From NCBI GenBank assembly GCA_017965425.1, contig JAGCPY010000008.1, positions 1-40,927 on the forward strand: DNA of 40,927 nucleotides. Direction: 5' to 3'. Positions 5,058 through 37,400 of this stretch are shown one piece after another (positions within the stretch are counted from its first letter, which is position 1; every line of letters starts with the position of its first letter). The DNA is from Bacteroidaceae bacterium. Lineage in GTDB: Bacteria > Bacteroidota > Bacteroidia > Bacteroidales > Bacteroidaceae. The notes beneath the pieces are model-generated. The model was given only the letters and a program-made list of their open reading frames with translations. It had not been told where the DNA came from and did not search any database. The position numbers and the translations under genes were made by a program.

Positions 5058-6242
5058 TTATTCTTCTTCAGGCTCTGTGGTCGGAGTTGAAAGCGCCTCC
5101 TCAGTGCCCAGCTTCTGGATGGCCTCTTCGGTGTGCTTCATCCAGAGCTTGCGGACAGCGCTACGCTCTGCCAGGCCTGGAATGTAGCCTTTCTCTTGAA
5201 TCTCAGCGGTGTTCTTCCAGCAGGGTTCCTTGAAGTTCTTCTCGTAGGCTGCCGTCTTAATGCCTGCAGCATTGAACATAGAGAACCAGCTCTCTTCGTC
5301 CTCGTCGTCGGCCATGTCGTTGTGAGCATGATCACCTGAGATGGACATGAGCACGAAGAGTTGTGCCTTCGCAGCAGGATTTGCCTCGTAATTGACAGGC
5401 ACTTCCACTGTACCGACCTCATAAGTAAACGAACGACCCTTGATGTTCTCGAGGACATCATCAACCAGAGTCTGATCCATGTCAACAGTGCCGACATAGT
5501 AGTTCTTGCTCTTGTCGCGCAACGCCTGCTCCAGCTGCACATAACGGATGTTACCGCCATAGTAGTCGTATCCTTCTGGGTTGCCATGACCCATGAATGC
5601 CACGATACCTTCGGCAAGCGCAGACTTCACGTCGCTTTCCTCATGCAGCACGTCAGCCAATTCCTGAGCATCCTCTTCTTCAGCCATGAGAGGAGTTCCG
5701 ATAACAACGTTTCGGTCGAGGCTCTTCATATATTCCTTGGTGAAACGCTGGCCACGGTTGTTCATGAAGTTCTTGACGAACAAATCGCGTACATTGCGGT
5801 ACTCCTCACCAGGGATGACTTGCAGGGATTGTACGACAATCTGCTTGTAGCCAGCCAGACCAATGGCATTGAGCCAATGTTCAGGATCGTAGTAAGTTAC
5901 GGATGCGCCGTTCTCACCATCCTTGCCATCTCCGTAAGCATTATTGATGCAGATGGCCGAAGAGAAGCCCAAGTAGATGTCCCACTTGTTGCCGAACTTG
6001 GCTTTGTAGTCAGCCTTTACCTTCTCGAAGGTATCGAAAGCCTGCTCCCAAGTAGAGCCGAAAGCCACGATGAGGATGGCTCCGTCCTTCGTCTTGTTTT
6101 TCTTCACATACTCGGTCACTTCCTGCTGGAACTTGGTCTCGTTGTAGGATGTGGTCGTTTCCTCATCGTCCTTACATGAAGACATGTTCAGACTCATTGC
6201 GATAGCCACAGCGGCCATCATCAGATACTTAATCTTCTTCAT
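5058..6242 (-). CDS. cbiK: Sirohydrochlorin cobaltochelatase CbiK, lipoprotein form
   Basis: A 394-residue chelatase that inserts Co2+ into sirohydrochlorin or a related tetrapyrrole, the entry step of anaerobic cobalamin synthesis. Class II chelatase features are GAILIVAFGSTWEQAFDTF at 54-72, FMGHGNPEGYDYYGG around 216-230 and SGDHAHNDMADDEDEESW around 302-319; His219 and His305/His307 are the likely metal ligands. Unlike cytoplasmic CbiK it begins with a lipoprotein signal, with the lipobox cysteine at 23 (MSSC). The next residues, KDDEE, resemble the acidic export signal of surface lipoproteins in Bacteroidetes. It is about 130 residues longer than enteric CbiK and has a Glu-rich tail. It lies between two TonB receptors and its start lies inside the end of the upstream one. 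A related lipoprotein in Porphyromonas (IhtB) has been linked to haem uptake, so a role with haem or another porphyrin is possible. Confidence 0.87.
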   Translation of the reverse strand: MKKIKYLMMAAVAIAMSLNMSSCKDDEETTTSYNETKFQQEVTEYVKKNKTKDGAILIVAFGSTWEQAFDTFEKVKADYKAKFGNKWDIYLGFSSAICINNAYGDGKDGENGASVTYYDPEHWLNAIGLAGYKQIVVQSLQVIPGEEYRNVRDLFVKNFMNNRGQRFTKEYMKSLDRNVVIGTPLMAEEEDAQELADVLHEESDVKSALAEGIVAFMGHGNPEGYDYYGGNIRYVQLEQALRDKSKNYYVGTVDMDQTLVDDVLENIKGRSFTYEVGTVEVPVNYEANPAAKAQLFVLMSISGDHAHNDMADDEDEESWFSMFNAAGIKTAAYEKNFKEPCWKNTAEIQEKGYIPGLAERSAVRKLWMKHTEEAIQKLGTEEALSTPTTEPEEE

Positions 6243-8400
6243 TGTTTTGTTGTTTAAAGTTAGACTTGTAGTTATTAGTAAGTTTCTTGCCTTGATTGAA
6301 CCTCACCGTGAGTGAGGCATAGACGGTACGTCCCGGCGACGTGGTGCCCAAATGCAATCCGTGTGGCGTGCGATCGACGTAGTCGAAGATGTTGTCGATG
6401 CCAGCTTCAAGCTTGAAAAGGAATGAGCGAAGCGGAAAAGAGTAATTGCCAGTCAGTCGCCACAGTTGATAACCTTTCCCGTCGCCGTTCAGCTGATAAT
6501 ATCGCTTAGATGACAAACGCCCAAAGAGCCCGACGCCCACAGACGAGTCTTCTTTTTTCCCGTTCTCTTCCAACCTTTTACTGCTTATCGCATGATTCCA
6601 TGTGGCAGACCATGTGGCTTTGTGGTGAGCCATACCATCGATGGTCACTTGTTGCAACTCGTCTTTCTCTGAGTCGTAAAGCTTGGCATCAGTATCAAGA
6701 TAGCTGTAAGCTGCGTTGACGGCAAATTCTTTATTGATGCGGTAGCGCAAGGCTACGTCCACGCCCCATGTCTTAGCCGATTCCAAGTTATGATACTGAC
6801 GTGTTTTCAATGGCTGATATTGTGCATAGAGATCGCCTGGAACGGCGCTGACAGGAATGGTCACGAGTGCAATCATCTTGTCAACCTTATTATAATAGCC
6901 CGTCACAGAAGCTGTCAATCCTCCCCACGTGTATTCGGGTCCAAAAGAGAAGTAGTTGCTCACTTGCGGATGCAGTTCGGTGTTGCCTAAATAGAGGTAT
7001 GTTCCATTCATGTCACGGACGTAGCGGTAATACAGTTCCTTCGGAGTCGGACTCTTGAATCCCTGACTCCATGTAGCCCGCAAGCGCAAGTCGCTCACCT
7101 TAATCATGGCAGAGAACTTGGGCGTCAGGTAGAAGCCAAACTGCTCATTGCGGTTCAGACGCAAACCGCCTGTCAGGTTCAGCCAAGGAATTAAGCTCCA
7201 TTCGTCCTGCACATAGAGTGCTTCGGTGTTGTCTGTCGCCTGTCCACCTTCCACACGATGGGGGGCACGAAGCCAGTCATAGCGATACTCGAAGCCTGCG
7301 CTCAGTCTGTTCTCGAAAGGCAAGGCGAACACACCTTTCAAGTGAGCCATCACACGACGTTGGTCGCTCTGCAACTGCGCTTGTCCAGGATAGTAAGGGA
7401 CGTAATGCGACGGGTATCCATCTACTACGCCTTCGGTCAATGTGAAAGCCGTATAATCATAATAATAGGCATGGCGGTTCCAATCGATGTCAAGTGTGAC
7501 ATAGTCGTCGGTGTTCACTCTCCATCGTCCGCCCACAGCCGCCGAGGCATTATTGTAGCGCAGGTCATAGAACTTCTTATCCACACCCTTGTGTTCGCCC
7601 GACGGACGGTAGATGCGTTTGCGATAAATACTACCGTCGGCATAGAGTTCCAATCCCTTTACAGGTTCGTAGGTCAGACGTTCTGAGAGCTGCCAGTTCG
7701 TGTGTGCATTCACGGTCTTGTTCCTGGAATCTGTGATCAGATATTCTGTCTGCCTTGGATCTTCCGTGGCCGTATTCTGCCATCCGTCGGAGTGCTGAAG
7801 CTGGAAGTTCGTATAGCTCTTCACCTTCCCGAGGGCAAAGCTAACCCCGTTGTGCTGGCGAAGGTCATTATAGCAACCATAGCGCGTGGTGTTCTCCACC
7901 ATCAAAGCCTCGTTGTGTTTCCGAGTGATGATATTGATGACCCCTGCAATGGCGTCGCTGCCGTAGAGTGCGCTCGACGCTCCCTTGACAATCTCGATAC
8001 GCTCGATGTTGTGCGGGTCAATCAGGCTGAGTTCATTCTCTCCGCCTACGTCGCCATGAAGACGCTTGCCATCCACCAACACGAGGATGTAGGAATTACC
8101 AAGCCCATTCAGCTGCATCTGTGCCCCCATGTCGCCTTCATTGAAGTCAAACGAGGCCGTCAATCCAGAAAGAATGTCCTCCAGGCTTCGCCCTCCGTAT
8201 TGCTCCAGCTCGCGTCGCGTGATGACTTCTGTCTGCACGGGCGCATCCTTCAGCAGATGCTGGGTGCCAGTTCCGGTGACGACAACCTCCTCCAGGCGGT
8301 TTGTCCGTAAGGAGTCTTGTGCCGTAATCGGGGAAGCCGGGCATAAGAACACCACAGCTGCCACCCCTGTGCAATGGGCCACGTTAAGGGTTAATTTCAT
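6229..8400 (-). CDS. btuB: TonB-dependent vitamin B12 receptor, BtuB-like (first gene after riboswitch)
   Basis: An outer-membrane receptor of 723 residues if it starts at the ATG at 8400, which gives a normal signal peptide (MKLTLNVAHCTGVAAVVFL...ITAQ). The frame also extends upstream to 8454, but that would add 18 charged residues before the signal. Plug motifs are LEEVVVTGTGTQHLLKDAPV and RIEIVKGASSALYGSDAIAG, followed by a barrel. It is the first gene downstream of a cobalamin riboswitch, so repression by B12 is expected, as for btuB elsewhere. The usual terminal aromatic (SLTVRF) is followed by 22 further polar residues that run past the start of cbiK by 14 bases. This tail is unusual for an outer-membrane barrel and may reflect a lost stop codon. 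Confidence 0.9.
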   Translation of the reverse strand: MKLTLNVAHCTGVAAVVFLCPASPITAQDSLRTNRLEEVVVTGTGTQHLLKDAPVQTEVITRRELEQYGGRSLEDILSGLTASFDFNEGDMGAQMQLNGLGNSYILVLVDGKRLHGDVGGENELSLIDPHNIERIEIVKGASSALYGSDAIAGVINIITRKHNEALMVENTTRYGCYNDLRQHNGVSFALGKVKSYTNFQLQHSDGWQNTATEDPRQTEYLITDSRNKTVNAHTNWQLSERLTYEPVKGLELYADGSIYRKRIYRPSGEHKGVDKKFYDLRYNNASAAVGGRWRVNTDDYVTLDIDWNRHAYYYDYTAFTLTEGVVDGYPSHYVPYYPGQAQLQSDQRRVMAHLKGVFALPFENRLSAGFEYRYDWLRAPHRVEGGQATDNTEALYVQDEWSLIPWLNLTGGLRLNRNEQFGFYLTPKFSAMIKVSDLRLRATWSQGFKSPTPKELYYRYVRDMNGTYLYLGNTELHPQVSNYFSFGPEYTWGGLTASVTGYYNKVDKMIALVTIPVSAVPGDLYAQYQPLKTRQYHNLESAKTWGVDVALRYRINKEFAVNAAYSYLDTDAKLYDSEKDELQQVTIDGMAHHKATWSATWNHAISSKRLEENGKKEDSSVGVGLFGRLSSKRYYQLNGDGKGYQLWRLTGNYSFPLRSFLFKLEAGIDNIFDYVDRTPHGLHLGTTSPGRTVYASLTVRFNQGKKLTNNYKSNFKQQNNEED

Positions 8401-8461
8401 GTTGAAGTCCACGCGTCTGTTCCTGGACGCCTTCTTTAAACGTAAAACGGTCAACGTTAAA

Positions 8462-8668
8462 CGACCACTCGGCAGGTCTTCTGGCTTTCCCCATCTGCTC
8501 TACCTTCCCAGCCTTGTCAACATGTTTTCTTGTCAACGCGTCAACTACAGCCAGTGGCGTTATACGAACAGACTTTGAAGGGGATTACAGCTGCAGGTAC
8601 AGCCCCGGATTCTCACCGGATTCCCTTGCATCGATCGACATTCCATCGAACGATTGCCTTGTTTCGGC
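8462..8668 (-). promoter_or_regulatory. Cobalamin riboswitch upstream of btuB-cbiK operon
   Basis: Read on the minus strand, this leader shows the hallmark segments of the AdoCbl-type riboswitch in order: AAGGGAATCCGGTGAGAATC, then GGGGCTGTACCTGCAGCTGTA, then the B12 box containing GCCACTGGCTG (about 8549-8559), then GGGAAGG and finally CAGAAGACCTGCCGA (8468-8483). Between the aptamer and the ATG at 8400 are two possible expression-platform hairpins: a TTTAACGT...ACGTTTAAA pairing and GCGTC...GACGC close to the start. The latter suggests translational control. It should repress the leftward receptor/chelatase/corrin-ring operon when cobalamin is abundant. Confidence 0.96.
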
Positions 8669-8670
8669 TG

Positions 8671-8678
8671 CAAAGGTA
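8671..8678 (-). promoter_or_regulatory. Promoter -7 box of the riboswitch-led operon
   Basis: On the minus strand TACCTTTG followed by CAGCC matches the Bacteroidetes -7 consensus TAnnTTTG and lies immediately before the riboswitch aptamer. The -33 region is T-rich but has no clear TTTG, so this is a partial match. Confidence 0.6.
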
Positions 8679-8814
8679 AGTAAAAAATAAAGAATAGAGA
8701 AAAGAGAAGAAAGGAAAAAATGCAAGAATAGTCAAAAAAAGTTCTTTTTCCTCCAAAAAACACTTTTTCGCTTGTTTTTCTCAACTTCTCTTTTCTCTTT
8801 TCTCTTAAAATCCG

Positions 8815-8822
8815 TACCTTTG
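8815..8822 (+). promoter_or_regulatory. Promoter -7 box of the cobB-cobC operon
   Basis: TACCTTTG matches the Bacteroidetes -7 box. It ends 6 bases before the ATG of cobB (8829). Since these promoters usually start transcripts several bases downstream, the mRNA may begin at or very near the start codon. No good -33 TTTG is visible in the T-rich upstream stretch. Confidence 0.6.
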
Positions 8823-8828
8823 CGCCCG

Positions 8829-10106
8829 ATGAAATCAGCATTCCTCATAGCGGCTCCCATGAGTGGTTCGGGCAAGACAACCGTTGCACGCGGTTTGATG
8901 GCCCTGTTCGTGAAAGAAGGTCTTCGTGTGCAGCCCTTCAAATGCGGGCCAGACTATATCGACACAAAGTTCCATGAGGCCGTTTGTGGACGACCCAGCG
9001 TCAACCTCGACACGTTCATGGCTTCCGAGGCTCATGTCCTTGAGCTATTTGAGCGTTACACATCCGATGCCGATGTGGCTGTGGTTGAGGGCATGATGGG
9101 CCTGTTTGACGGCTACGACCACGACCGTGGCTCCTGTGCAGAGATTGCACGCATATTGAATCTGCCCGTGGTTCTTGTGGTGGATGCACGCTCGGCAGCT
9201 TACTCTATGGCTGCATTGCTGAAAGGCTTCATCGACTTTCGGACAGACCTGCGCTTCGCAAGCGTTATATATAATAAGGTGGGAAGTGAACGCCATGCGG
9301 CGATGCTGCAAGAGGTGGCCGCCGACGTGGGCATACCTTGCTTCGGTTGCATCCCCAAGCAGACAGCGTTGGAAACAGGCTCGCGCTATCTGGGGCTTGA
9401 CTTCTCGGAGAAGACCGGCAGCGACCACTTGGTAAGACTGCTGGCAGAGCGCATCCACTGGCAGACACTGCTGGAGAAGACGAATATACGTGAACGCCGA
9501 CACGTATATACGAACATGCAAACTCGTATATACAAAAACACTGACACGGATAGACGTGTTTTCGTGGCTCGCAATGCAGAATCGTTTTCTTTCCTTTATC
9601 AAGAGACACTCGACCGCCTTCGCACTTGGGCAGACATCATGTTCTTTGACCCAGAGGACACCGAGAACGTCTTCGACAAGGCTTCTCTGATTTATCTTCC
9701 CGGCGGCTATCCTGAAAAGCATCTTGAAGCCTTGGTGCGTGCCGAATCAACACGGCGTGCCATCAAGGCATTTGCAGAGGACGGAGGGCGCATCGTTGCT
9801 GAATGCGGAGGGATGATGTATCTGTGCCGAAGCATCCTCACCGACGATGGCGAGTACCCGATGTGCGGCGTCCTCCCCTACTCCATCACAGCCCGCAAGG
9901 CCGACCGTCGCCTCTCACTCGGCTATCGCCGTTTCGTGCTCGACGGAAAAGAATACCGTGGACACGAGTTCCATTACACCCAGTTCCAAGGACAGCGACC
10001 AGAATCGGCTGCACAAGTTTACAATGCCAAGGGCGAACCTGTTGATACGCCCGTGCTGAGCTATAAGAATGTCTTGGCATCCTACACCCATCTGTACAAC
10101 ATCTAA
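8829..10106 (+). CDS. cobB: Cobyrinate a,c-diamide synthase (CobB/CbiA)
   Basis: A 425-residue ATP- and glutamine-dependent amidase that amidates the a and c side chains of cob(II)yrinate. The N-terminal synthetase domain starts with the P-loop MSGSGKTT (11-18) and CGPDYIDTKFHE; VVEGMMGLFDG is a family motif. The C-terminal glutaminase domain has LPGGYPEKHLEAL and the nucleophile Cys326 in AECGGMMYLC. I chose the ATG at 8829 because it puts the P-loop at the usual position; the frame is open back to 8772, but that would precede the promoter box. Between the two domains, residues about 217-245 (HVYTNMQTRIYKNTDTDRR) are encoded by an AT-rich palindromic stretch unlike the flanking code. It opens an eight-gene operon. 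Confidence 0.93.
   Translation: MKSAFLIAAPMSGSGKTTVARGLMALFVKEGLRVQPFKCGPDYIDTKFHEAVCGRPSVNLDTFMASEAHVLELFERYTSDADVAVVEGMMGLFDGYDHDRGSCAEIARILNLPVVLVVDARSAAYSMAALLKGFIDFRTDLRFASVIYNKVGSERHAAMLQEVAADVGIPCFGCIPKQTALETGSRYLGLDFSEKTGSDHLVRLLAERIHWQTLLEKTNIRERRHVYTNMQTRIYKNTDTDRRVFVARNAESFSFLYQETLDRLRTWADIMFFDPEDTENVFDKASLIYLPGGYPEKHLEALVRAESTRRAIKAFAEDGGRIVAECGGMMYLCRSILTDDGEYPMCGVLPYSITARKADRRLSLGYRRFVLDGKEYRGHEFHYTQFQGQRPESAAQVYNAKGEPVDTPVLSYKNVLASYTHLYNI
9504..9562 (+). repeat. Nested inverted repeats inside cobB
   Basis: GTATATACGA (9504-9513) and TCGTATATAC (9524-9533) are perfect 10-bp inverted arms with a 10-base loop. They are followed by AAAACAC (9535-9541) and GTGTTTT (9556-9562), a second 7-bp pair. 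The stretch stays in frame and falls in the linker between the synthetase and glutaminase domains. Its composition differs from the surrounding GC-richer code. Confidence 0.75.
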
Positions 10107-18058: not shown

Positions 18059-20698
18059 TTACTGAATCAGCGTCTTCTTGCCGCCGACAATGTAGATGCC
18101 GGACTTCAGGCTTGAACGGCGAGTCGGCAGGTCAGACAACCGGCGTCCACTGAGGTCATAGACGACGGGAGACTGCTTCGAGGCATTCGCAAACTCAAAG
18201 ATTCCCGTGCCATCGTCTGGCAAAGTGACCTTGACAGCCTTGCTCCATTCAGATGTATTGCCATTGGCATCGACGGCCTGCACCTGGCAGAGATAGGTCA
18301 TACCCGGCATGAGCTCCGTGAAAGTATAAGTGGTGGCTGTGATACCTGAAAGGAACGTTCCTTCTGCTTCTGCACGACGCATAACCATTGCCTTTTTGAG
18401 CGGTGCCACTTGCTTTGCACGGCTGACACGACGAGGCGACCACCAGTAGTCGTCATCATCTTCATCATCCCATCCGTTCTCATCTTCATCATCTAAAAGT
18501 GACGCGATATCTTCTTCCGAGAAGTTTCCGTCGAAACCTAAGAAGGTGTCAATCCAGATACGTTTAGTGGGACGGATGCTGATGGCATAGGTCGAAGGAA
18601 CATTGGAGAAATGCAACACGTCTAAATCTGGATAGATGAAGTAGTAGCCATCGTCGGTGATTTGTCCTGCGGTAATCGTCTGCTTCTGCAGCTCATTACC
18701 CGCTTCATCCAAAAGAACGACATCCACGCTGCTGTTATCGTACTTATAAACGTCCTGATCCAACAGCGTTTTGTAATTGAACCAGTCGAGAAGGCCCAAA
18801 CATAAAGTAAGCTCACCCGACTCGCCTTGCAACAAGGGGGTTGTCAACTGACCAGCAGCCTTGGAAGAACCTAACTTGGCACCGCACAAACCTTCATAAA
18901 CTTTGGAACCAGTCCAACCTTCATCATAGGTATAATCGTCCAGATTGTCGGAAATATCTTTTGAACCATCAGCTGTTTCGTCTTGGTCAACAAAGAAACT
19001 CTCAAAGTCTTCATATATAATGATTGACTCCATTATCTCAGACGGGTCTGCACCTCCTTCACCTTCTGTCAGCATCACGTTATAGCTTTCAGCTCCTTCC
19101 ACAGCACCCCAGCTGATGGTGAAACCATCGGCGGTGATGTCGGTTGGTGCATCCAATTCAGGAACAGCCAGAGGCGTGAGGACATCTGTCGAGAAGTCGA
19201 AGCTGATGACACCATCTGCTTCAACAATATTGGTAATGGGCTTGTGCATCAACTTCTGTCCGTCGGTATTGGCGCGATAGAGCGTGGCGGCTGGTTTGGA
19301 GTCATCGGTGAGCGCGGTATTCTTCTTTCGGCCAGGCCAGAGGTCTCCTTCCAAATCGGCCGCAGAATCGTAGGAAAGCTTATTATCAGCGGGAATAATG
19401 GTCATACGCTGACGGTTGGAAGTATTATTGATGGTATTGTTATTCCAGGCATTTGCGTCGTAGTCAACATGTGTAATCATCATCCCGTGGCCAAAAGCCT
19501 CTTTGTCCCAACCCGTCAGCTGGTGGTTGGCCAAGAGATAGTACTCGTTCCTGTTGGCATTGTTATAAATTATATACGCTTCGGGATTGTCTTCGATATT
19601 CTTCAAGGCGCAGACGTGACAGGCTTCGTTAAGTTCTACAGGTTCAAGCCAACCGCAGAACCAACGTTCATAAGCGGTATATCCAGCCGGAACAAAGCCA
19701 TCACCACCATAGCATCCTGAATCCATAACGCTCCAGAAACACATACCGAAATTCTCCTGCTCATTGGTGTCATAGAAGTCGGGCAGGCCAAGACAATGAC
19801 TATATTCATGACACATCGTGCCGATGCCGTCAAGAGTTGTGCCGCTTGTGCCATAGAGTTCAGAGCCGCAGGCGTATGTGTCAATTCTTACGCCATCAAG
19901 GGTGAGCGGTGCTCCAGTACTCTCGGTGAGATTCCATTGATGGGGCCAGACAGTGTTTTCGCCTGCCTTGTCCCCTTCTGGGAAGGATGCCTCGCCATAA
20001 CCTGCGTAGGTGATATAGATGTTCTCCACCTCGCCGTCACCATCCCAGTCATAGTCGGCAAAGTTCACCTGACTATCTACCAGCTTGCAGGCCTCTACGA
20101 CCATCTGTTCAGGAGCTTTATCGTTGCCGTTCTTGTCATTGCCACCGTAATAGCTCATCTTCTGTGATACGGTAACTGGCCCCACAATATCAAAATTGAT
20201 ATCGAAATGCCCATAGCTCTGTGCCCGGAAGTACTCGCGGACACTTCCATAGTTCTTTCCGTAAGGATTGTTCAACCCGTTGAGCATCTGGTCGAAAACA
20301 GATTGCGAATTATCGCCGTTCACCATCTTCTTATCAGTGAAGTTGACGAGGATAAGAAGTCCCTTCTTTGTATTCGTAACTTCTCCAGCACGGCGCGGTG
20401 CCAGATGACGGCGTGTGCGTTCGGCCAGCTTCTGACGGTGCTTGTTGCGTTTGGTCAGAGCCTCTGCCCATAGAGCATGGACATCGCGCGTATCTACGCT
20501 CCATGTGCCATCTTCGTTCTTGCAGACAGGCACGCCATCCAAGGTTGTATGGAAGTGGAAAGTCTCGTCGCCACGAAGCTGGATAACCTTTTCAGTACCA
20601 TCGCTCATGCGAACCGTTGTTGTAACACGTCGGGCAGGCACAGCCATCATCTGGGTTGCAAGACCTATACAAAAGAGAAATGTAAAAAGCTTTTTCAT
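18059..20698 (-). CDS. Secreted M6-family metallopeptidase with split FN3 domain and C-terminal sorting-type tail
   Basis: An 879-residue exported protein with a signal peptide (MKKLFTFLFCIGLATQMMA). The M6 catalytic domain has the zinc motif HEYSHCLGLPDFYD around residues 296-309 and a downstream MDSGCYGG, typical of the immune-inhibitor-A-like group. A fibronectin type III domain appears to start at about 515 (DGFTISWGAVEGAESYNV) and to finish only at about 790-830 (YTFTELMPGMTYLCQVQAVD). The intervening 230 residues look like a nested beta-sandwich (IIYEDFESF, GAKLGSSKAAGQLTTPLL) with a strongly acidic run DDEDENGWDDEDDDD. The tail YDLSGRRL...SGIYIVGGKKTLIQ resembles short type IX secretion C-terminal signals. 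It likely degrades extracellular protein; the substrate is unknown. Confidence 0.87.
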   Translation of the reverse strand: MKKLFTFLFCIGLATQMMAVPARRVTTTVRMSDGTEKVIQLRGDETFHFHTTLDGVPVCKNEDGTWSVDTRDVHALWAEALTKRNKHRQKLAERTRRHLAPRRAGEVTNTKKGLLILVNFTDKKMVNGDNSQSVFDQMLNGLNNPYGKNYGSVREYFRAQSYGHFDINFDIVGPVTVSQKMSYYGGNDKNGNDKAPEQMVVEACKLVDSQVNFADYDWDGDGEVENIYITYAGYGEASFPEGDKAGENTVWPHQWNLTESTGAPLTLDGVRIDTYACGSELYGTSGTTLDGIGTMCHEYSHCLGLPDFYDTNEQENFGMCFWSVMDSGCYGGDGFVPAGYTAYERWFCGWLEPVELNEACHVCALKNIEDNPEAYIIYNNANRNEYYLLANHQLTGWDKEAFGHGMMITHVDYDANAWNNNTINNTSNRQRMTIIPADNKLSYDSAADLEGDLWPGRKKNTALTDDSKPAATLYRANTDGQKLMHKPITNIVEADGVISFDFSTDVLTPLAVPELDAPTDITADGFTISWGAVEGAESYNVMLTEGEGGADPSEIMESIIIYEDFESFFVDQDETADGSKDISDNLDDYTYDEGWTGSKVYEGLCGAKLGSSKAAGQLTTPLLQGESGELTLCLGLLDWFNYKTLLDQDVYKYDNSSVDVVLLDEAGNELQKQTITAGQITDDGYYFIYPDLDVLHFSNVPSTYAISIRPTKRIWIDTFLGFDGNFSEEDIASLLDDEDENGWDDEDDDDYWWSPRRVSRAKQVAPLKKAMVMRRAEAEGTFLSGITATTYTFTELMPGMTYLCQVQAVDANGNTSEWSKAVKVTLPDDGTGIFEFANASKQSPVVYDLSGRRLSDLPTRRSSLKSGIYIVGGKKTLIQ

Positions 20699-20747: not shown

Positions 20748-22577
20748 TCAAGGAATCAACAGCTTACGACCGCCATAGATATAAAGGCCTGGCTTTAGCA
20801 TCTCACGGGAAGCCTTCTTCGTTCTATCCTGACGGGCAACGCGTCTGCCACTAAGGTCATAGACATTTTCATCTTCACGTAAAACAGCGGATTGCTGATC
20901 CTGAAGCTGCGCAAGGCCAACGGTGACAGGATTTTCCAGATAGCTGAGAGTGACCGTTCCATCCTCCTGTTGACGGATATTGAAGATGTCTTTATGCATA
21001 AAGCCGGAAGCCGAGTAAACAGTAGCGGCTGGCACGGAATGAACAGTCAGCGAATCGTTGCAGACAAGAGTGTCGCCTGAGGCTGCATCTACCTTGACGA
21101 AAGGATAGAGATTTCCGCTCCAAGTCTCACGAAGATGTGCACCGTCCCGCGTATCGGGATTTGAAGTTCCGAAGTACATGTTGTTGGCCGCGATGATGGT
21201 CATTCGTTGATGATTTTTATTCGTATTGACTGAATTGCCATTCCAAATGCTTTGAGAGAAATCGACATGAGTCACTTGCATTCCTCGGCCCAAACGACCA
21301 AGGACAGAATCCCATCCTTCGGGCTGTCTATTCTCGATGATATAGTATTCGTCGGCATTTTCCTCATTGATAATTTTGTAGCCTTTGCCGCCAAGTTCTG
21401 TGGGCAGCAAAGTCAACGTCCCCTTTTGATCCAAGACTTCCAACTTACGCCAGCCCATAAAATCGCGTTCATAAGTTGTATAGGAAACAGGGGTGTAGCC
21501 ATTGTTGGCATAACAGCCGTAATCCATCAACGACCATACATCCATGCCGAAGCCCGTTCCCTTGGTATCATAGAAATCGGGCAATCCGAGCGCATGTCCT
21601 AATTCGTGGCACATGATGCCAATGCCATCAGGGGTTGAATAATCGATGGTATCTATGCGAATGGAGTCCTGACCGTTAGCAGCAGGAATGTCGAGCGTAT
21701 CGCGTTCATAACGGCGAGCTTTACGCATCTCGTTACAGCAGGCGCTGGTAGAGAACTGAATATTATTGATGGTGACACTGCCTTGACTTTCTTTCGGCCA
21801 AATGGTGGAAGCGTCACCTCCGTTTGCCTCTCCACGCCCCGCAAAGATGAAGAAAATCATATCCACCTGCGGTTTGGTCTCAGTGCTCTTCCCACGATTA
21901 TCAAATCGTCTCCAATCAATATCATATTGAGCCGTGACTTTTTTGATGGCATCATTGCGGAACTGGCCGTAGCGAGTGTCCTTGTTGTCGCCACTGTTAG
22001 TGCCATAATACTCTTCAGGCTGATCGAGCGTAACAGGACCTAAGATGACAAATTCCGGAAGAAAGAGACTGTCACTCTGTTGAGCAAAATAATCACGTAT
22101 TGAGCCGTAACTACCATGCCCCTTATAAAGCTGACCGTCACGTGTTCCATTGCAATAAAGATCATAATAATTCCTCAGTCCCTCATCCGTATCAGCAACG
22201 GAGAAAACCGAATCCGCAAAATTCACCAGTACAACAGGAACTTTTGGAGAACCGATGGAGGGCAGAGGAGCCGAAGTTTGAGAACCGATGCGACGGGGAG
22301 CGAGTCTGGCGGAACCATCCTCTTCTTCCTCCGCACGAGCACGTTCGTCCACAAATCTGCGGCTGGTCTTGATGAAACGCTTAGAATCTGACAAAGAAGG
22401 AATGACCACGAAGCCATCGTCGCTTAGGAAACAACTGAAATACTCGTCACCCACAAGGGTTACGGTAATCTGCGATCCGTCAGTCAGAAGCACTTGTTGA
22501 CGAAGACGCTGAGAAGGAACGGCGAGGATGGCTGTGCAAAAAACGGCACTCAGAAAAAGAAATGACAATCGCTTCAT
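20748..22577 (-). CDS. Secreted M6-family metallopeptidase with C-terminal sorting-type tail
   Basis: A protein of about 609 residues with a signal peptide (MKRLSFLFLSAVFCTAILA). The catalytic domain carries CHELGHALGLPDFYD around 320-335, with the glutamate and third ligand in the M6 pattern, then SLMDYGCYANNG. The C terminus YDLSGRRV...KPGLYIYGGRKLLIP matches that of the downstream M6 protein, implying the same secretion route. It is shorter than its neighbour because it lacks the FN3/nested region. Start candidates are the ATGs at 22577 and 22583; a TTG at 22592 is less likely. A TATATTTG box at 22603-22610 (minus) lies just upstream. The two paralogues are probably co-transcribed, with manC downstream. 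Confidence 0.87.
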   Translation of the reverse strand: MKRLSFLFLSAVFCTAILAVPSQRLRQQVLLTDGSQITVTLVGDEYFSCFLSDDGFVVIPSLSDSKRFIKTSRRFVDERARAEEEEDGSARLAPRRIGSQTSAPLPSIGSPKVPVVLVNFADSVFSVADTDEGLRNYYDLYCNGTRDGQLYKGHGSYGSIRDYFAQQSDSLFLPEFVILGPVTLDQPEEYYGTNSGDNKDTRYGQFRNDAIKKVTAQYDIDWRRFDNRGKSTETKPQVDMIFFIFAGRGEANGGDASTIWPKESQGSVTINNIQFSTSACCNEMRKARRYERDTLDIPAANGQDSIRIDTIDYSTPDGIGIMCHELGHALGLPDFYDTKGTGFGMDVWSLMDYGCYANNGYTPVSYTTYERDFMGWRKLEVLDQKGTLTLLPTELGGKGYKIINEENADEYYIIENRQPEGWDSVLGRLGRGMQVTHVDFSQSIWNGNSVNTNKNHQRMTIIAANNMYFGTSNPDTRDGAHLRETWSGNLYPFVKVDAASGDTLVCNDSLTVHSVPAATVYSASGFMHKDIFNIRQQEDGTVTLSYLENPVTVGLAQLQDQQSAVLREDENVYDLSGRRVARQDRTKKASREMLKPGLYIYGGRKLLIP

Positions 22578-22602
22578 AAACATGATTTTCAATGTGTATC
22601 TT

Positions 22603-23963: not shown

Positions 23964-24593
23964 TTATATGTGCAATCCCATTTGAATGAACTTACTCTTG
24001 ACCGTTTCGCGCAAGCGTTGCATACATTTGTACTTGCTTGTCTTGAGCCCGACTTTGCTGGAGTTTTCTGGACGAAGCTGGAGAATCTCGTCGAGAGAAC
24101 GTTGTTCGTAGTAGAACATCGTGAGGATTTGGCGGCAACGATCGCTCATGGCAAGCACGGCATCCGATACAATCCGCTCGCGCATTTCTGCCTCATTCTC
24201 CGTCCCGACAGGTTGTGTGTCATAGCGGCCACGGTCGAAGACTTCGATTTCGTCAGTCAGCAAGAGGTCTTGTCCGCGACGCAACTGTTCCCAGTGCTTG
24301 CGCTTGGCTATGGCCATGAGGAAGGTGAAGAGCGAACTGGTCATGGGGCGTGGCTCACCTTCAGTCCACCGACAAACGACTTCGTCAACGACTTCGATGC
24401 GATGCGTCTCGATTTCACGCCAAAGATGAATCAAGGCTTCCTGAAAGATGTCGCCCGCGAGAGCTTCTGACACGAACAAGGCTCCTGCATGCTGCATGAA
24501 GTAAGATCTGCAGTCATGGTAGAACCGTTCGAGACGTTTGGTGTCGTGGGCAGCCACGGCTTCGACCATCTCTCTGTCTGTCCAATTATTCAT
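23964..24593 (-). CDS. ECF-type RNA polymerase sigma factor
   Basis: A 209-residue sigma-70 family protein with the two-domain layout of extracytoplasmic function sigma factors. The region 2 part includes AGDIFQEALIHLWREIE and the following FTFLMAIAKRKHWEQLRR (near 85-105). Region 4 runs from AVLAMSDRCRQILTMFYYEQRSLDEIL to a helix-turn-helix with VGLKTSKYKCMQRLRE. Region 4 is slightly divergent: LRPENSSKVGLKTSK sits where canonical proteins have MGISEGTVKSR. It is downstream of prsW (57-base gap) and upstream of a small membrane protein gene, all on one strand. This suggests a membrane-controlled regulon, but the target promoters are unknown. Confidence 0.87.
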   Translation of the reverse strand: MNNWTDREMVEAVAAHDTKRLERFYHDCRSYFMQHAGALFVSEALAGDIFQEALIHLWREIETHRIEVVDEVVCRWTEGEPRPMTSSLFTFLMAIAKRKHWEQLRRGQDLLLTDEIEVFDRGRYDTQPVGTENEAEMRERIVSDAVLAMSDRCRQILTMFYYEQRSLDEILQLRPENSSKVGLKTSKYKCMQRLRETVKSKFIQMGLHI

Positions 24594-24650
24594 GGGGTTG
24601 CTAACGTGTTGACGCCTTTATATGAAAAGAAAAAGGAAAAAGTGACCCAT

Positions 24651-25376
24651 TCATCCAAAATTTCTGTACTTGTCGGCCTCGATGAGTTCGCCTATATGGC
24701 GTGTACAGAGCTTACGCAACTCATTACAGAAAGCCAACAGGGCGACCGTGAACAAGAGTTGCATCCCAGGCGTAACCTCGGTGGTCATGGCGATGGAATC
24801 ATAGATTCCATGGGCGATAACAGGAGCTGCAATAACGAGCAGTCGGTTACGTTTGCTGTCATGACCGAAGTGGACAAGGCTGTAATAGTAACCCATGAGA
24901 ACAGCAAAGAAGAAATGACCTGGAACAGAAAGCAAACCACGAGCGACAGCGGTCGTGAGCCAAGAGTCACCAGCAGCAAAGAGATACTGAACGTTCTCGA
25001 AAGCGGCGAAACCCAACCCGATACAGACGGCGTAAACGACACCATCGAGGTGTTCGTCAAAAAATGGATTATGACGCAGCAATAACCAAAGGAACAAAAG
25101 CTTGGAGAGTTCCTCGGGTATGGCAGCAACAAAGAAGGAATGCCACGTGGCCTCAATGGCGTTTTCGTAATTGCCGGAAGCAATGCCCAGCAAGAGTATC
25201 GGCATCGAGAATGCCAGTGAGCCAACGGCAGAAAAGATTCCGAAGACAAAACCTTTAATAAGTTGCGAGGCGGGTTCTGGGTTTTTCTTGTCGCGCCAGA
25301 GCACAAAAAGCATCATCACCACAACGGGTAATAAGGCAGCGGCAAGAAGGAGTGTGACAGTTGCGTCCATCATCAT
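24651..25376 (-). CDS. prsW: PrsW-family intramembrane metalloprotease
   Basis: A 241-residue polytopic membrane protein with seven or so hydrophobic helices. The PrsW motifs are in order: PEELSKLLFL (Glu88-Glu89), FAAFENVQYL (Glu127), VPGHFFFAVLMGYY (His154) and IAHGIYDSIAM (His189), the presumed zinc-binding and catalytic residues. In Bacillus subtilis PrsW makes the first cut in anti-sigma RsiW. Here the gene precedes an ECF sigma gene and a single-pass membrane protein on the same strand, which suggests a similar signalling role, though this is inference. Three consecutive Met codons leave the start ambiguous by 6 bases. A TACCTTTG box (minus, 25458-25465) lies about 80 bases upstream. 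Confidence 0.9.
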   Translation of the reverse strand: MMMDATVTLLLAAALLPVVVMMLFVLWRDKKNPEPASQLIKGFVFGIFSAVGSLAFSMPILLLGIASGNYENAIEATWHSFFVAAIPEELSKLLFLWLLLRHNPFFDEHLDGVVYAVCIGLGFAAFENVQYLFAAGDSWLTTAVARGLLSVPGHFFFAVLMGYYYSLVHFGHDSKRNRLLVIAAPVIAHGIYDSIAMTTEVTPGMQLLFTVALLAFCNELRKLCTRHIGELIEADKYRNFG

Positions 25377-25457
25377 TCAACCAAGAATACACAAAATGCG
25401 GTTCAAAGTAAACAAAAAAAGATGAAGTGTGCAAATTTTGTGGCAGAAAGTTGTATG

Positions 25458-25465
25458 CAAAGGTA
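25458..25465 (-). promoter_or_regulatory. Promoter -7 box upstream of prsW
   Basis: TACCTTTG on the minus strand, followed by C, matches the Bacteroidetes -7 box. A T-rich TTTTCTGG lies about 20 bases upstream in place of a clean TTTG. Confidence 0.55.
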
Positions 25466-25491
25466 AAGATTGCATTTTATTTGCCAGAAAA

Positions 25492-25523
25492 TTTGGACGG
25501 GAACGCCGATGGTCTTACCTTTG
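25492..25523 (+). promoter_or_regulatory. Consensus promoter with no downstream ORF
   Basis: TTTG (25492-25495), 20 bases, TACCTTTG (25516-25523). This is a full match to the Bacteroidetes promoter. It points rightward into a region with no plausible rightward gene before 26100, which supports a non-coding transcript. Confidence 0.75.
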
Positions 25524-25529
25524 CGACAT

Positions 25530-25765
25530 CAAAAGTGATCTTTGACACGCCAAAGAAGCGATATAAGCCGCACTGATTAGATCGGGAGACTCATCAATAA
25601 TAACAGAAAACCGAGAACGTTTCACATACCAATGGCGGGCTGCGCCCTTTTCAAAGGGTAACCTCTTCACAGAGGCCGGCAGATTACAAAGGGTGTGGGC
25701 ACTCAAATCATATATGCTCGGAGTTCTCATCACATCATCAGTGCGGCTTCCTTTGTATCTTTACC
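25530..25765 (+). ncRNA. Candidate structured non-coding RNA (6S-like size and closed shape; family not identified)
   Basis: The stretch follows a full consensus promoter and holds no convincing ORF. AAGCCGCACTGAT (25565-25577) and ATCAGTGCGGCTT (25737-25749) are perfect 13-bp complementary arms enclosing 159 bases. Outside them AAAGA (25552-25556) pairs with TCTTT (25758-25762) across a symmetric 8x8 loop. Inside are GAGACTC/GAGTTCTC, or alternatively CCGAG/CTCGG, plus three small hairpins in a row: GGGC-TGC-GCCC, CCCTT-TTCA-AAGGG and CCTCT-TCAC-AGAGG. The total length of about 200-230 nt and end-to-end pairing recall 6S RNA or the Bacteroidales-1 type. tmRNA, RNase P and SRP RNA signature sequences are absent. 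No clear T-tract terminator is seen, so the 3' end is approximate. Confidence 0.55.
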
Positions 25766-25782
25766 CCAGAGAGAGCAGCTGC

Positions 25783-25983
25783 CTACAGTTTCGACGAGAG
25801 CAAGCTGGCAAATACCTCTTTCATACGGCCGTGTTCGTCGGCAGACAGTGCAGGCAGATGAAGGTTCATCCATTGGTCGAAAGCTTCGAGGGCTTTCATT
25901 CTGGCAATGGCCTTTCCAGCTTTCAACCCGCTGGCGTAAGGGGTATGGGGCAAGAGAGCCTTGTTGAAATTTCCGTCGCTCAT
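25783..25983 (-). CDS. Small conserved-looking hypothetical protein
   Basis: A 66-residue cytoplasmic protein (MSDGNFNKALLPHTPY...) with no membrane segment or known domain. It is basic near Lys/Arg in ASGLKAGKAIARMKALEAF and predicted helical thereafter. I recognise this style of short protein from Bacteroidales genomes but cannot name a function. The frame is open upstream to 26121, but that would run through a promoter box; the ATG at 25983 lies about 40 bases after a TACCTTTG box on the minus strand (26021-26028). It converges on the candidate RNA to its left and diverges from the hypothetical gene to its right. Confidence 0.65.
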   Translation of the reverse strand: MSDGNFNKALLPHTPYASGLKAGKAIARMKALEAFDQWMNLHLPALSADEHGRMKEVFASLLSSKL

Positions 25984-26020
25984 ATCGGTGTGTAGATAAG
26001 TTTTTTCCTGTTTTCGGGCA

Positions 26021-26028
26021 CAAAGGTA
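26021..26028 (-). promoter_or_regulatory. Promoter -7 box for the 66-residue protein gene
   Basis: TACCTTTG on the minus strand, 12 bases from the opposing plus-strand box at 26041-26048, giving a compact pair of divergent promoters. Confidence 0.55.
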
Positions 26029-26040
26029 TGCTTTTTTCCG

Positions 26041-26048
26041 TATCTTTG
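26041..26048 (+). promoter_or_regulatory. Promoter -7 box for the gene at 26100
   Basis: TATCTTTG followed by CACCCG. It matches TAnnTTTG and the extended TTTGCrCC pattern seen at other promoters here. No clean -33 box. Confidence 0.55.
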
Positions 26049-26099
26049 CACCCGATTGCTTCAGAAACTTACAAATTACGGCTGAAAATCGAGGCAGAC

Positions 26100-26807
26100 A
26101 TGGACCAACATTATCACCCAATCATCTTTCAACGCCTGCGACAAATTTTCGAGGCGAAGGACTGGACTTCGCTAATACCTTATTTAAACAGCCTCTCCAA
26201 CGCCCATTTCCGCACGGCAGGCTATCTGATAGGAGAACGACTGCTGCCGACAGCTGTGTCTGACGATTTCTGGACGGTTGCCTTATTGCTCATCCAATGG
26301 CAACCCAAGGCATTCACGGTGACTTTGGCCAAAGCAGCTACTCCCCGCCTTCAACAAGGTTCGTTGTCGATTGACGAAGAAGGCTTCCTGCGCCTGGCCA
26401 CTTTTCTCAAGGAGAACCAGCGCACGATCGATCAGCAGAAAATCCTGATGCTGTGGTTGCCGGCCATCCGTCAGCCAGCCACGATGGAACGTCTTTTCGA
26501 TCTCTTCTGCATCGACAATCCCCGCCAAAAGGCCGAATTTCTCCTGCGCACAGACGGGTTAGTGGCCGGCTTCGTACTTCTGCGCACGATGCTTTTCGAG
26601 GAACACGACCGCGTGTGGCTGGCTTCCGTCTGCCGGCAACTCATGAAGCGAAGCGACAGCCAGTCCTTCAACCTCGCCAGCATCTTCAGGACCTATTTTG
26701 ACTTGCAGGAAGTACGTGGCACCTTCTCGCTCAGCATCCAACCCTACGAAATGGCTCGTCTGGACACCGATTTCGAAGTCTTCTGCCGCGTGGCGACAAA
26801 GGTGTAA
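26100..26807 (+). CDS. Hypothetical protein, helical, function unknown
   Basis: A 235-residue protein starting MDQHYHPIIFQRLRQIFEAKDW. I chose the ATG at 26100, preceded by GAGGCAGAC, because the longer frame from 26028 would begin ahead of the promoter box at 26041. Sequence character is alpha-helical and repetitive in hydrophobic spacing, with paired-helix segments such as SLIPYLNSLSNAHFRTAGYL, FWTVALLLIQWQPKAF and FLRLATFLKENQRTID. It lacks signal peptide, membrane helices and catalytic motifs I can name. It might be a scaffold or HEAT-like helical protein, but that is a guess. It stands alone between a divergent small gene and the deoxynucleoside kinase pair, which has its own promoter. 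Confidence 0.75.
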   Translation: MDQHYHPIIFQRLRQIFEAKDWTSLIPYLNSLSNAHFRTAGYLIGERLLPTAVSDDFWTVALLLIQWQPKAFTVTLAKAATPRLQQGSLSIDEEGFLRLATFLKENQRTIDQQKILMLWLPAIRQPATMERLFDLFCIDNPRQKAEFLLRTDGLVAGFVLLRTMLFEEHDRVWLASVCRQLMKRSDSQSFNLASIFRTYFDLQEVRGTFSLSIQPYEMARLDTDFEVFCRVATKV

Positions 26808-26920: not shown

Positions 26921-27544
26921 ATGCACATTGCCATCGCCGGAAATATCGGCTCGGGGAAGACGACACTTACCAACATGCTTGCCCAGCACTATGGCTGGAC
27001 ACCGCGCTTTGAACCCGTTGACGTCAACCCCTATCTCGAAGACTACTACAAGGACATACCGCGTTGGTCGTTCAACCTCGAAATCTACTTCCTCAAGCAA
27101 CGGTTCAAAGACTTGTTGGAGCTGGAACATGCCACCGAGACCATCATTCAAGACCGCAGCATCTACGAAGGAGTTTACGTTTTCACGGCCAACAACCATG
27201 CCTCCGGCAACCTCTCCGACCGCGACTTCCAGACCTACATGGAACTCTTCGAACAGATGACCGAAATCGTGCGCTATCCCGACCTGATGATCTACCTTCG
27301 TGCCAGCGTGCCTCACCTCGTCCAGAACATCCAGAAGCGGGGGCGCGACTATGAACAGAGTATGCCCATCGACTATCTCCGCAACCTCAACCTCCTCTAC
27401 GAAGAATTCATCTATCAGAAATATCGTGGACGCGTGCTCACCATTGACGTCGATCAGCTCGACTTCCAGCACCGCCCCGAAGACTTCGCGGGCATCATCG
27501 ACAAGATCGATGCCAACCTTTTCGGACTCTTCAGCCCTCTTTAA
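26921..27544 (+). CDS. Deoxynucleoside kinase (first of tandem pair)
   Basis: A 207-residue kinase that phosphorylates deoxynucleosides for the salvage of DNA precursors. The P-loop is GNIGSGKT (7-14); the substrate-side motif PRWSFNLEIYFLKQRF follows at 47-62; DRSIYE (78-83) holds the catalytic-region DRS; and KRGRDYEQ forms the lid with its arginines. This is the pattern of the dAK/dGK/dCK family. Length is typical. The next gene is a close paralogue 24 bases downstream, so the pair probably arose by duplication and may split substrates (for example dA and dG), as in the Lactobacillus heterodimeric enzymes. Specificity cannot be read from sequence alone. Confidence 0.9.
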   Translation: MHIAIAGNIGSGKTTLTNMLAQHYGWTPRFEPVDVNPYLEDYYKDIPRWSFNLEIYFLKQRFKDLLELEHATETIIQDRSIYEGVYVFTANNHASGNLSDRDFQTYMELFEQMTEIVRYPDLMIYLRASVPHLVQNIQKRGRDYEQSMPIDYLRNLNLLYEEFIYQKYRGRVLTIDVDQLDFQHRPEDFAGIIDKIDANLFGLFSPL

Positions 27545-27568: not shown

Positions 27569-28198
27569 ATGCATATCGCCATCGCAGGAAACATCGGCTC
27601 AGGCAAGACCACCCTCACCAAGATGCTTGCCCACCACTACGGCTGGAAGCCCAACTTCGAGTCCGTCGAGTTCAATCCTTATCTGGACGACTTCTACCAC
27701 GACATGAGCCGCTGGTCGTTCAACCTTCAGGTCTATTTCCTCAACAAGCGTTTCAAGGATGTCGTGGAGATCTCGAAGTCAAACGAAACCATCATCCAGG
27801 ACCGAACCATCTTCGAGGACGCACGCATCTTTGCGCCCAACCTCCACGACCAAGGCTACATGAGCGACCGCGACTTCGACAACTACAGCGACCTTTTCGA
27901 CCTGATGATGTCGCTCGTGAAGTTACCGGATCTTATGATCTACATCCGGAGCACCATCCCCACCCTCATCAGCCAAATCCAAAAACGTGGACGCGAGTAT
28001 GAACAGACCATCCGCATCGACTACCTCCAGGGCCTTGGCGAACGATATGAGGCATGGATCAAGAACTACACCGGGAACCTCATCATCGTCGATGGCGACA
28101 CCTGCAAGTTCGAGAGCAACCCCGAAGACTTCCGCACCATCACCGACATGATTGACGCCCGACTCTACGGACTCTTCAGCCAGCAACGAGACAGCTGA
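27569..28198 (+). CDS. Deoxynucleoside kinase (second of tandem pair)
   Basis: A 209-residue paralogue of the preceding kinase, with an identical P-loop context (MHIAIAGNIGSGKTTLTKML), SRWSFNLQVYFLNKRF, DRTIFEDA in place of DRSIYEGV, and KRGREYEQ. The DRS-to-DRT change and the differences in the region after it could alter base choice. It is co-transcribed with the first copy (24-base gap) and is the last gene before the second repeat site. The two proteins share most core motifs but clearly differ over long stretches, so the duplication is old and both copies appear intact. Confidence 0.9.
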   Translation: MHIAIAGNIGSGKTTLTKMLAHHYGWKPNFESVEFNPYLDDFYHDMSRWSFNLQVYFLNKRFKDVVEISKSNETIIQDRTIFEDARIFAPNLHDQGYMSDRDFDNYSDLFDLMMSLVKLPDLMIYIRSTIPTLISQIQKRGREYEQTIRIDYLQGLGERYEAWIKNYTGNLIIVDGDTCKFESNPEDFRTITDMIDARLYGLFSQQRDS

Positions 28199-34573: not shown

Positions 34574-36496
34574 ATGCACACAAAAAGTGAATTGGAAAGC
34601 CTGGATATACAGGCTTTGACCGACATTGCCAAATCGCTGAATATTCCTGTTAAATCCAGTACCGAGAAACTCGACCTCATCTATAGTATTATTGGTGCCG
34701 AGAGCGAACAGGCCGTCACTTCAAGTTCATCTGCAACCTCAGCTCCCAAGAAGCGCGGTCGAAAATCAAAGGCCGAGAAAGCTGCTACGGAAGCAACTCA
34801 AAAAGCTGAGGAAGAAGCTACCAAAAAGAAAGAGGAAGAACCTGTTGCCGAGACCGTTCCTCCTACTGCACCAGTTCCTGAAACTCCTGCTCCGAAGAAG
34901 CGTGGCCGCAAGTCAAAGGCTGAAAAAGCGGCATTGGAAGCTGCTGCAAAGGCTGCCGAGTTGCAGCTTTTCGGACAAGAGGAAGCTAAGACTTCTCCCA
35001 CCGATGAACCTCAAGCTGAGACCGTGACTGTGGCTGACGAGGTTCCCGCAGCAGAAAAGACGGAAACGAAAACTGAAACTCCCCTTGACACTCCAGAAGA
35101 TGCTGAAGAGACACAGGCACAGCCGTCTTCAACAGAACCAACATCCGAGGAAATCGATCGATTCTTCGAAGCTAACGAGCCAGACTTTATCATCATCCAA
35201 TCAATACCAGAAGATGAAGAGAACATAGACATCATGCCCAATGCCCGATTCCAACAGGAAACTGGCAATGAGCCTGTGCCTCCTTACCTTCAGAACCTTA
35301 CAAGCATCTCTGCCACGCCTTACAATAACGCACAAGCTCTCAAGACACAGCCAGAAGCAGCTCTTCAACCCTATGACTTCGGGGATCTGGTGATGACAGA
35401 AGGCGTGCTCGAGACTACACCAGACGGATGGGGATTCTTACGTTCGTCCGACTACAACTATCTGCCCAGCCCCGACGACGTTTATGTCAGCCAGCAACAG
35501 ATTAAGCAATATGGTTTGAAGACGGGCGACGTGGTCGAAGGATACGTGCGTCCACCGCGTGAAGGCGAAAAGTATTTCCCACTGACCAATATCAAGCAAG
35601 TCAACGGTGTGGATCCTGCACGCATCCGTGACCGTCAATCGTTCGAGCACCTGACCCCCCTCTTCCCCGACGAGAAGTTCAAACTCTGCCGTGGCTACAA
35701 CGACCCCACAAGTGTCCGCGTTGTCGATCTATTCTCGCCCATTGGCAAGGGACAGCGTGCGCTCATCGTGGCACAGCCGAAGACGGGTAAGACAATTCTC
35801 ATGAAAGATATAGCCAACGCCATTGCAGCCAACCATCCAGAAGCTTACCTGATGATGCTGCTCATCGACGAACGACCGGAGGAGGTCACCGATATGGCTC
35901 GAACCGTCAATGCCGAAGTCATCGCCTCTACCTTCGATGAACCAGCAGAGCGCCACGTGAAGATTGCCGGCATCGTGCTTGAAAAAGCCAAACGCATGGT
36001 CGAGTGCGGACACGACGTGGTCATCTTCCTCGATAGCATTACACGTCTGGCGCGCGCCTACAACACCGTCGCCCCTGCCAGTGGCAAGATTCTCTCCGGC
36101 GGCGTTGACGCTCAAGCCTTGCACAAGCCCAAACGCTTCTTCGGCGCTGCACGCAATATCGAAGGCGGTGGTTCACTCACGATTATTGCCACCGCCCTCA
36201 TTGACACAGGTTCCAAGATGGACGAAGTCATCTTCGAGGAGTTCAAAGGAACTGGAAACATGGAACTGCAGCTTGACCGCGTATTGTCGAACAAGCGCAT
36301 CTTCCCTGCTGTGAACATCATCGCCAGCAGCACTCGACGCGACGACCTCCTGCACGACAAGACCACACTCGACCGCATGTGGATTCTGCGCAAGTACCTT
36401 TCAGACATGACTCCGCTCGAAGCCATGACCGAACTCAAGAAGCGTCTCGAAGACACCAAGACAAACGAGGAATTCCTTATCTCGATGAATTCCTAA
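34574..36496 (+). CDS. rho: Transcription termination factor Rho with disordered insert
   Basis: A 640-residue RNA-dependent ATPase that ends transcription of untranslated RNA. Residues 1-45 are the Rho N-terminal helical domain ([14 protein letters not shown]). Residues about 46-245 are a low-complexity Ala/Glu/Lys/Pro insert with two copies of [13 protein letters not shown] (59-71 and 108-120). The OSD RNA-binding domain follows ([20 protein letters not shown]), then the ATPase with the P-loop QPKTGKT around 400, [25 protein letters not shown] and the Q-/R-loop region. It is about 220 residues longer than enteric Rho (419). Such an insert is known in Bacteroides Rho, where it promotes condensate formation. 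The leader contains possible attenuation signals. Confidence 0.97.
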
Positions 36497-37307: not shown

Positions 37308-37380
<73 letters not shown>

Positions 37381-37400
37381 CCTCAGAAAAGAAGAAAGAC

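Follow-up and report, generated by a model that had tools for sequence, protein, structure and literature searches.

The segment from 25566 to 25754 of the window (the whole stretch of DNA analyzed here, 40,927 nucleotides long) is very probably the gene for 6S RNA in its Bacteroidales version, carried by an uncultured Prevotellaceae-type bacterium. It encodes a Bacteroidales-1 RNA, which has its own promoter, is widely conserved, and is closed by a helix established through covariation. A 6S function is presumed from the family and from Bacteroides thetaiotaomicron, and polymerase binding and the making of product RNAs would come with it. The RNA family was already known; our additions are the closing helix and a boxA-like element in the leader.

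Family assignment, transcript, and distribution

An Rfam covariance scan matched RF01693 (Bacteroidales-1) to positions 25566 to 25754 of the plus strand, over model positions 1 to 179 of 179 and with 135.2 bits (E 1.3e-22) against a gathering score of 60 bits. The initial annotation, made from the sequence alone, had pointed to a small RNA recalling 6S RNA or Bacteroidales-1 and had suggested a covariance search, which settled on the latter family. RF01693 was the single match in a permissive scan of 25440 to 25800 (up to E 1), and the 6S RNA model RF00013 had none in that segment at the same threshold. In a covariance-model search of the organism's own genome, we found one copy of RF01693 and no match to RF00013. 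Among 14 control genomes, RF00013 matched in five (E. coli, B. subtilis, Caulobacter, Synechococcus, and Lactococcus), and RF01693 matched in Bacteroides ihuae only, which had no RF00013 match. Since the match spans the whole model and greatly exceeds the gathering score, and since Rfam describes the family as "6S-Bacteroidales RNA suggested," we presume a 6S role for it. In B. thetaiotaomicron, RNA-seq is reported to have detected 6S RNA along with product RNAs of two classes (PMC7366714).

The RNA was found in 38 of 61 relatives, namely, in 33 of 37 from the genus and in 5 of 24 from other families of the order (one of them below the cutoff). Genus-wide, 123 of 139 genomes had it, including all 18 that were at least 90% complete. 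A sample of the family gave matches in 275 of 301 genomes and in 30 of 30 genera (163 of 169 when only good-quality genomes were counted). It occurs as a stand-alone intergenic unit with its own promoter and no fused plus-strand gene. A pattern for the window-type RNA retrieved 27 named contigs, titled Prevotellaceae, Bacteroidaceae, or Bacteroidales bacteria; all 27 RNAs were already within our set, so the retrieval supplied names and is no independent test. Rumen or omasum was named for 8 of the 27, which suggests a similar habitat for the window's organism. A search for similar DNA on plasmids gave one weak match, in a single Phocaeicola record, which covered 47% of the query at 73.4% identity.

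For comparative work, 126 places in the 123 genomes of the genus were reduced to 110 loci (the 16 left out were mostly the weakest), and 4 loci from other families of the order brought the set to 114 homologous loci. Removal of 40 loci that were >95% alike left an alignment of 74 sequences. We also assembled 70 loci from 22 other genera of the family, a nonrandom choice of the best-scoring or hand-picked ones among the matches listed, in which the RNA start is mis-set in at least one locus (L282).

Directly upstream of the RNA, the promoter named in the initial annotation was present as described (Table 1). In 112 of the 114 homologous loci, a TAnnTTTG motif lay upstream of the RNA at a distance of no more than 150 nt, and such a motif preceded the RNA in 66 of the 70 loci from other genera. 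This housekeeping promoter would start a plus-strand transcript of about 225 nt; judged by the promoter position, transcription would begin near 25527 to 25530, leaving a leader of roughly 36 nt. At the other end, the 8 bases past the 3' arm of the closing helix contained at least five T's in 85 of 114 loci, compared with 9.4% of 8-mers further downstream. No ordinary intrinsic terminator hairpin was found in 25440 to 25850, and the closing helix together with the T tract may act as the transcription end. With these data, the promoter and leader of Bacteroidales-1 RNA are mapped in over a hundred genomes.

Table 1. Features of the RNA gene, in window coordinates
Feature	Position	Strand	Remarks
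Promoter	25492..25523	+	TTTG (-33 type) 25492-25495, spacer 20, TACCTTTG (-7 type) 25516-25523; read directly
5' leader of transcript	25530..25565	+	Predicted from promoter and RNA positions
boxA-like element	25537..25547	+	GATCTTTGACA, between promoter and RNA
Bacteroidales-1 (6S-type) RNA	25566..25754	+	Full RF01693 match
Closing helix, 5' arm	25566..25577	+	Compensatory change at 12/12 pairs
Central helix, 5' strand	25586..25592	+	GAGACTC; 98.0% of cells paired, nearly invariant
Branched core	25613..25704	+	Rfam consensus; compensatory changes in longer helices
Branched-core stem	25619-25630 with 25691-25700	+	Rfam consensus
Branched-core inner stem	25640-25643 with 25679-25682	+	Rfam consensus
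Two small core hairpins	near 25645-25658 and 25662-25675	+	Rfam consensus
Central helix, 3' strand	25721..25728	+	GAGTTCTC
Closing helix, 3' arm	25737..25748	+	Compensatory change at 12/12 pairs
T-rich tail	25747..25762	+	Right after closing helix; possible terminator with the helix

Covariation of the closing helix and the RNA fold

The segment folded better than its own shuffles (z about -2.9, with 1 of 200 shuffles equally good), in agreement with its description as strongly structured. The 13-bp perfect arms that had drawn attention to it (25565 to 25577 and 25737 to 25749) are present and were rightly called unlikely by chance: among 300 dinucleotide shuffles of 25490 to 25765, none contained a perfect inverted repeat of 13 and a single one contained a repeat of 12. 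A check of the arms for compensatory changes had also been proposed. In the 74 distinct sequences, the 12-bp closing helix had changes on both sides at all 12 pairs, and 96.6% of cells were paired. Compensatory cells numbered 119, whereas shuffles averaged 31.3 (none of 500 was as high) and slid versions of the helix had 7 to 15. The shuffle control leaves relatedness in; the slid control removes it but favors a structure that comes from one member. Both ends of the RNA are unpaired in the consensus printed for RF01693. The Rfam structure of an RNA that is very widespread in gut and rumen thus lacks its closing helix, for which covariation evidence is given here.

Over the whole structure model, 24 of 37 pairs had changes on both sides. 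The central helix hardly varies, and covariation therefore offers no confirmation of it. A linked change is in line with the helix, as a G in one strand was accompanied by an extra C in its partner in 23 of 24 such sequences, but this may reflect a single event. In the branched core, compensatory changes affected 9 of 12 pairs in one of the two longer helices and 3 of 4 in the other, and the two small hairpins were variable or missing in relatives. The better reading of the three consecutive hairpins of the initial annotation is a branched core stem that covaries and encloses two small hairpins. An outer 5-bp helix across a symmetric 8x8 loop, also proposed there, can be drawn in the window but is not conserved: all five of its pairs formed in only 1 of 114 loci, a count consistent with the window itself being that locus. 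We also tried an alternative pairing of CCGAG with CTCGG, which was paired in 89.2% of cells and was rejected, having no both-side changes and nothing above shuffles.

Taken as a whole, the RNA has a long rod with a closing helix (from covariation) and a central unpaired region (internal loops from the consensus fold). It would fold into a rod in which the 12-bp closing helix leads to two internal loops separated by a short helix and then to a branched apex. On the model of 6S RNA, such a molecule would imitate an opened promoter and occupy the RNA polymerase-housekeeping sigma holoenzyme, and polymerase would then copy a short product RNA from it, leading to release. The start of the product RNA could not be located from the sequence.

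Could this be a conserved, structured small RNA of Bacteroidales that does not regulate polymerase, such as a base-pairing small RNA or a protein sponge? The branched apex would fit such a role, as would the strongly conserved single-stranded blocks (for example, CTCAAATC and GGATTACAAAGG), and the function of the motif was left open when it was listed as an RNA in 2010 (table in PMC2864571). We nevertheless consider it unlikely. A 6S RNA with product RNAs is reported in B. thetaiotaomicron (PMC7366714), presumably from the RF01693 locus, and the B. ihuae genome has RF01693 but no RF00013 match; moreover, the covarying closing helix, the internal loops, and the near-universal presence suit 6S RNA. 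Far less probable still is that the segment matters as a protein-coding frame on the minus strand (25515 to 25733) or as the cis-regulatory leader of a downstream plus-strand gene. A 72-codon minus-strand frame does exist, and mechanical plus-strand frames overlap the 3' part of the RNA, but the minus-strand frame was open in the same register in just 3 of the 33 members of the boxA clade described below, which largely refutes the protein; its conservation had been named in the initial annotation among the results that would refute an RNA gene. Some other members of that clade have a long frame in another register, of up to 73 codons. Three overlapping or adjacent frames (25515 to 25733 itself not among them) had no Pfam match, the pattern of changes is that of paired RNA, and the next conserved frame downstream (25783 to 25983) lies on the opposite strand, which speaks against a cis-regulatory leader.

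A boxA-like block in the leader of one clade

The leader contains a short block resembling boxA (Table 1), a feature that the initial annotation had not picked up. Its strict pattern was found in the leaders of 28 of the 114 homologous loci and in 1 of the 70 loci from other genera, where leaders were mostly short; we therefore regard the block as a clade trait. In rRNA leaders of the genus, the block lay downstream of the promoter in 26 of 30 loci (30 loci out of 46 places in 36 genomes), a count that becomes 27 if a match lying ahead of the promoter in the organism's own genome is included. The own rRNA leader was among the four without the block and had the variant GATCCTTGAAA instead. That leader was taken from a truncated-looking 16S gene near a contig end, found by a pattern for the 16S start; a 16S model search of the genome had given no match. 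We take the block of the rRNA leaders to be boxA from its likeness to the boxA sequences of E. coli and B. subtilis. The 6S leader block shares its sequence with this rRNA-leader element of the same organisms, which speaks for its membership in boxA.

A weight matrix built from the 26 rRNA instances reached 8 bits or more for 30 of 112 6S leaders, with 10.2 bits for that of the window. In a tree of the RNA body, all 30 matrix-positive leaders fell within one clade of 33 (SH-aLRT, 98). The other three members scored 6.6, 6.5, and 3.1, the last with an intact TCTTTGACA, and a relaxed core of the block was found in 33 of 33 members, whose leaders otherwise differed. The block is thus a derived trait of one clade, which the 6S leaders share with rRNA leaders. 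As controls, we used 28 genomes chosen for having the block in the 6S leader: none of 27 RNase P RNA loci (from 26 of these genomes) and none of 20 tmRNA loci above the cutoff had it within 150 nt upstream. Within the window's own genome, the related pattern TYCTTTGACA occurred at 23 places, against 18 for the reversed control, which is no clear enrichment.

We think it somewhat probable, from the sequence comparisons, that the element is a working rRNA-type boxA on the 6S gene. A smaller but appreciable chance goes to its being something else, be it a coincidental match, a further promoter element of the TTTG kind, or the target of a different factor. The block does hold TTTG, which is also found in promoter elements of the phylum, and 33 copies in a clade of relatives are not 33 independent events, as the distribution on the tree needs at least 4 changes and could be explained by as few. 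A chance match, however, fits poorly with the shuffled leaders, which in 200 shuffles averaged 0.57 matches and never exceeded 3, against the 30 observed, and with the retention of positions that the search pattern does not force: the G two before the core and the A after it were each kept in 31 of 33 members, whereas the columns flanking the block were mostly under 0.6 bits. The distance from block to RNA, 18 to 64 nt across the clade, is ill suited to a -33 element, and the recurrence of the same block after the promoter in most rRNA leaders also argues for boxA.

As a boxA, the element would be exposed first by the nascent transcript, as in rRNA, and its likeliest use would be the loading of NusB-S10 onto the elongating polymerase. 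NusB-S10 might then shield the untranslated 6S transcript from Rho or couple its synthesis and folding to the machinery used for rRNA. We tentatively propose, as a possibility close to evenly balanced, that in a clade of mostly rumen Prevotellaceae the 6S gene acquired a longer leader with a boxA of the rRNA type, such that 6S RNA is made by a Nus-modified, rRNA-style elongation complex and its supply is coupled to rRNA transcription capacity. If the boxA works, 6S RNA, a global transcription brake, would be linked to the machinery that makes rRNA, and boxA would extend to a short regulatory RNA. We found no relevant report of a boxA on a 6S RNA gene in the open-licence literature, which is weak evidence that the arrangement is unpublished.

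A different conserved 6S leader was seen in another group within the genus, in which a short inverted repeat (GTCTTACAG...TTAAGAC in L016) replaces the boxA-like block (L016, L019, L022, L023, L069, L070, L081, and L096).

Genomic surroundings and relation to known RNAs

Upstream of the RNA, on the minus strand (23964 to 25376), lie a gene for a PrsW-family protease (above the cutoff in Pfam and below it for the NCBIfam PrsW model) and an ECF-sigma-like gene, whose matches to ECF sigma factors were below the cutoff. An intramembrane protease of the PrsW family, an ECF-sigma-like gene, and the 6S gene thus stand side by side, so that polymerase regulators adjoin. Downstream, a 66-codon minus-strand frame (25783 to 25983) had no Pfam or NCBIfam match when searched as part of the frame 25783 to 26121; similar frames in related loci make it a putative small conserved protein. 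Across the 53 related loci with flanks (L002 to L054), PrsW was near 12 of 16 loci of the boxA clade and 0 of 37 others, and the sigma-like gene occurred in 10 and the small frame in 12 of the 53, all within that clade; the flanks were at most 1,500 bases, which makes gene absences soft.

Elsewhere in the window, a cobalamin riboswitch (RF00174, 76.2 bits; 8454 to 8676, minus strand) precedes genes for a TonB-dependent receptor (6229 to 8454) and a CbiK cobalt chelatase (5058 to 6242), with a CobB/CobQ-like gene close by (8772 to 10106). Peptidase M6 catalytic domains (immune inhibitor A type) occur in two adjacent minus-strand genes (18059 to 20698 and 20748 to 22592), and two deoxynucleoside kinase genes are in tandem on the plus strand (26921 to 27544 and 27569 to 28198). 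The plus strand also has a gene with Rho RNA-binding and ATPase domains (34574 to 36496), of interest since boxA acts against Rho, and a tRNA-Thr (CGT) gene (37308 to 37382).

The window RNA agrees with Bacteroidales-1 in its full-length match, strand, size, conserved blocks, and core stem. It differs in the closing helix, which covaries here and is missing from the consensus printed by Rfam, and in the boxA-like leader, which lies outside the model. By taxon and family, it is the presumed homologue of the 6S RNA of B. thetaiotaomicron (PMC7366714). With the 6S RNA of E. coli and B. subtilis (RF00013), it would share the closing helix, the internal loops, and the wide occurrence, whereas neither the segment nor the organism's genome matches RF00013. 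The 6S RNA of E. coli is a single rod, and the window RNA differs from it in the branched apical part. Finally, the leader block resembles the boxA found in rRNA leaders and in the suhB leader of E. coli (PMC5725501) as a short TCTTTGA-type block early in the transcript. The boxA survey in that paper deals with E. coli and its relatives and, by its own statement, leaves out noncoding RNAs; unlike the boxA elements of rRNA and suhB leaders treated there, the block described here stands on a 6S RNA gene.
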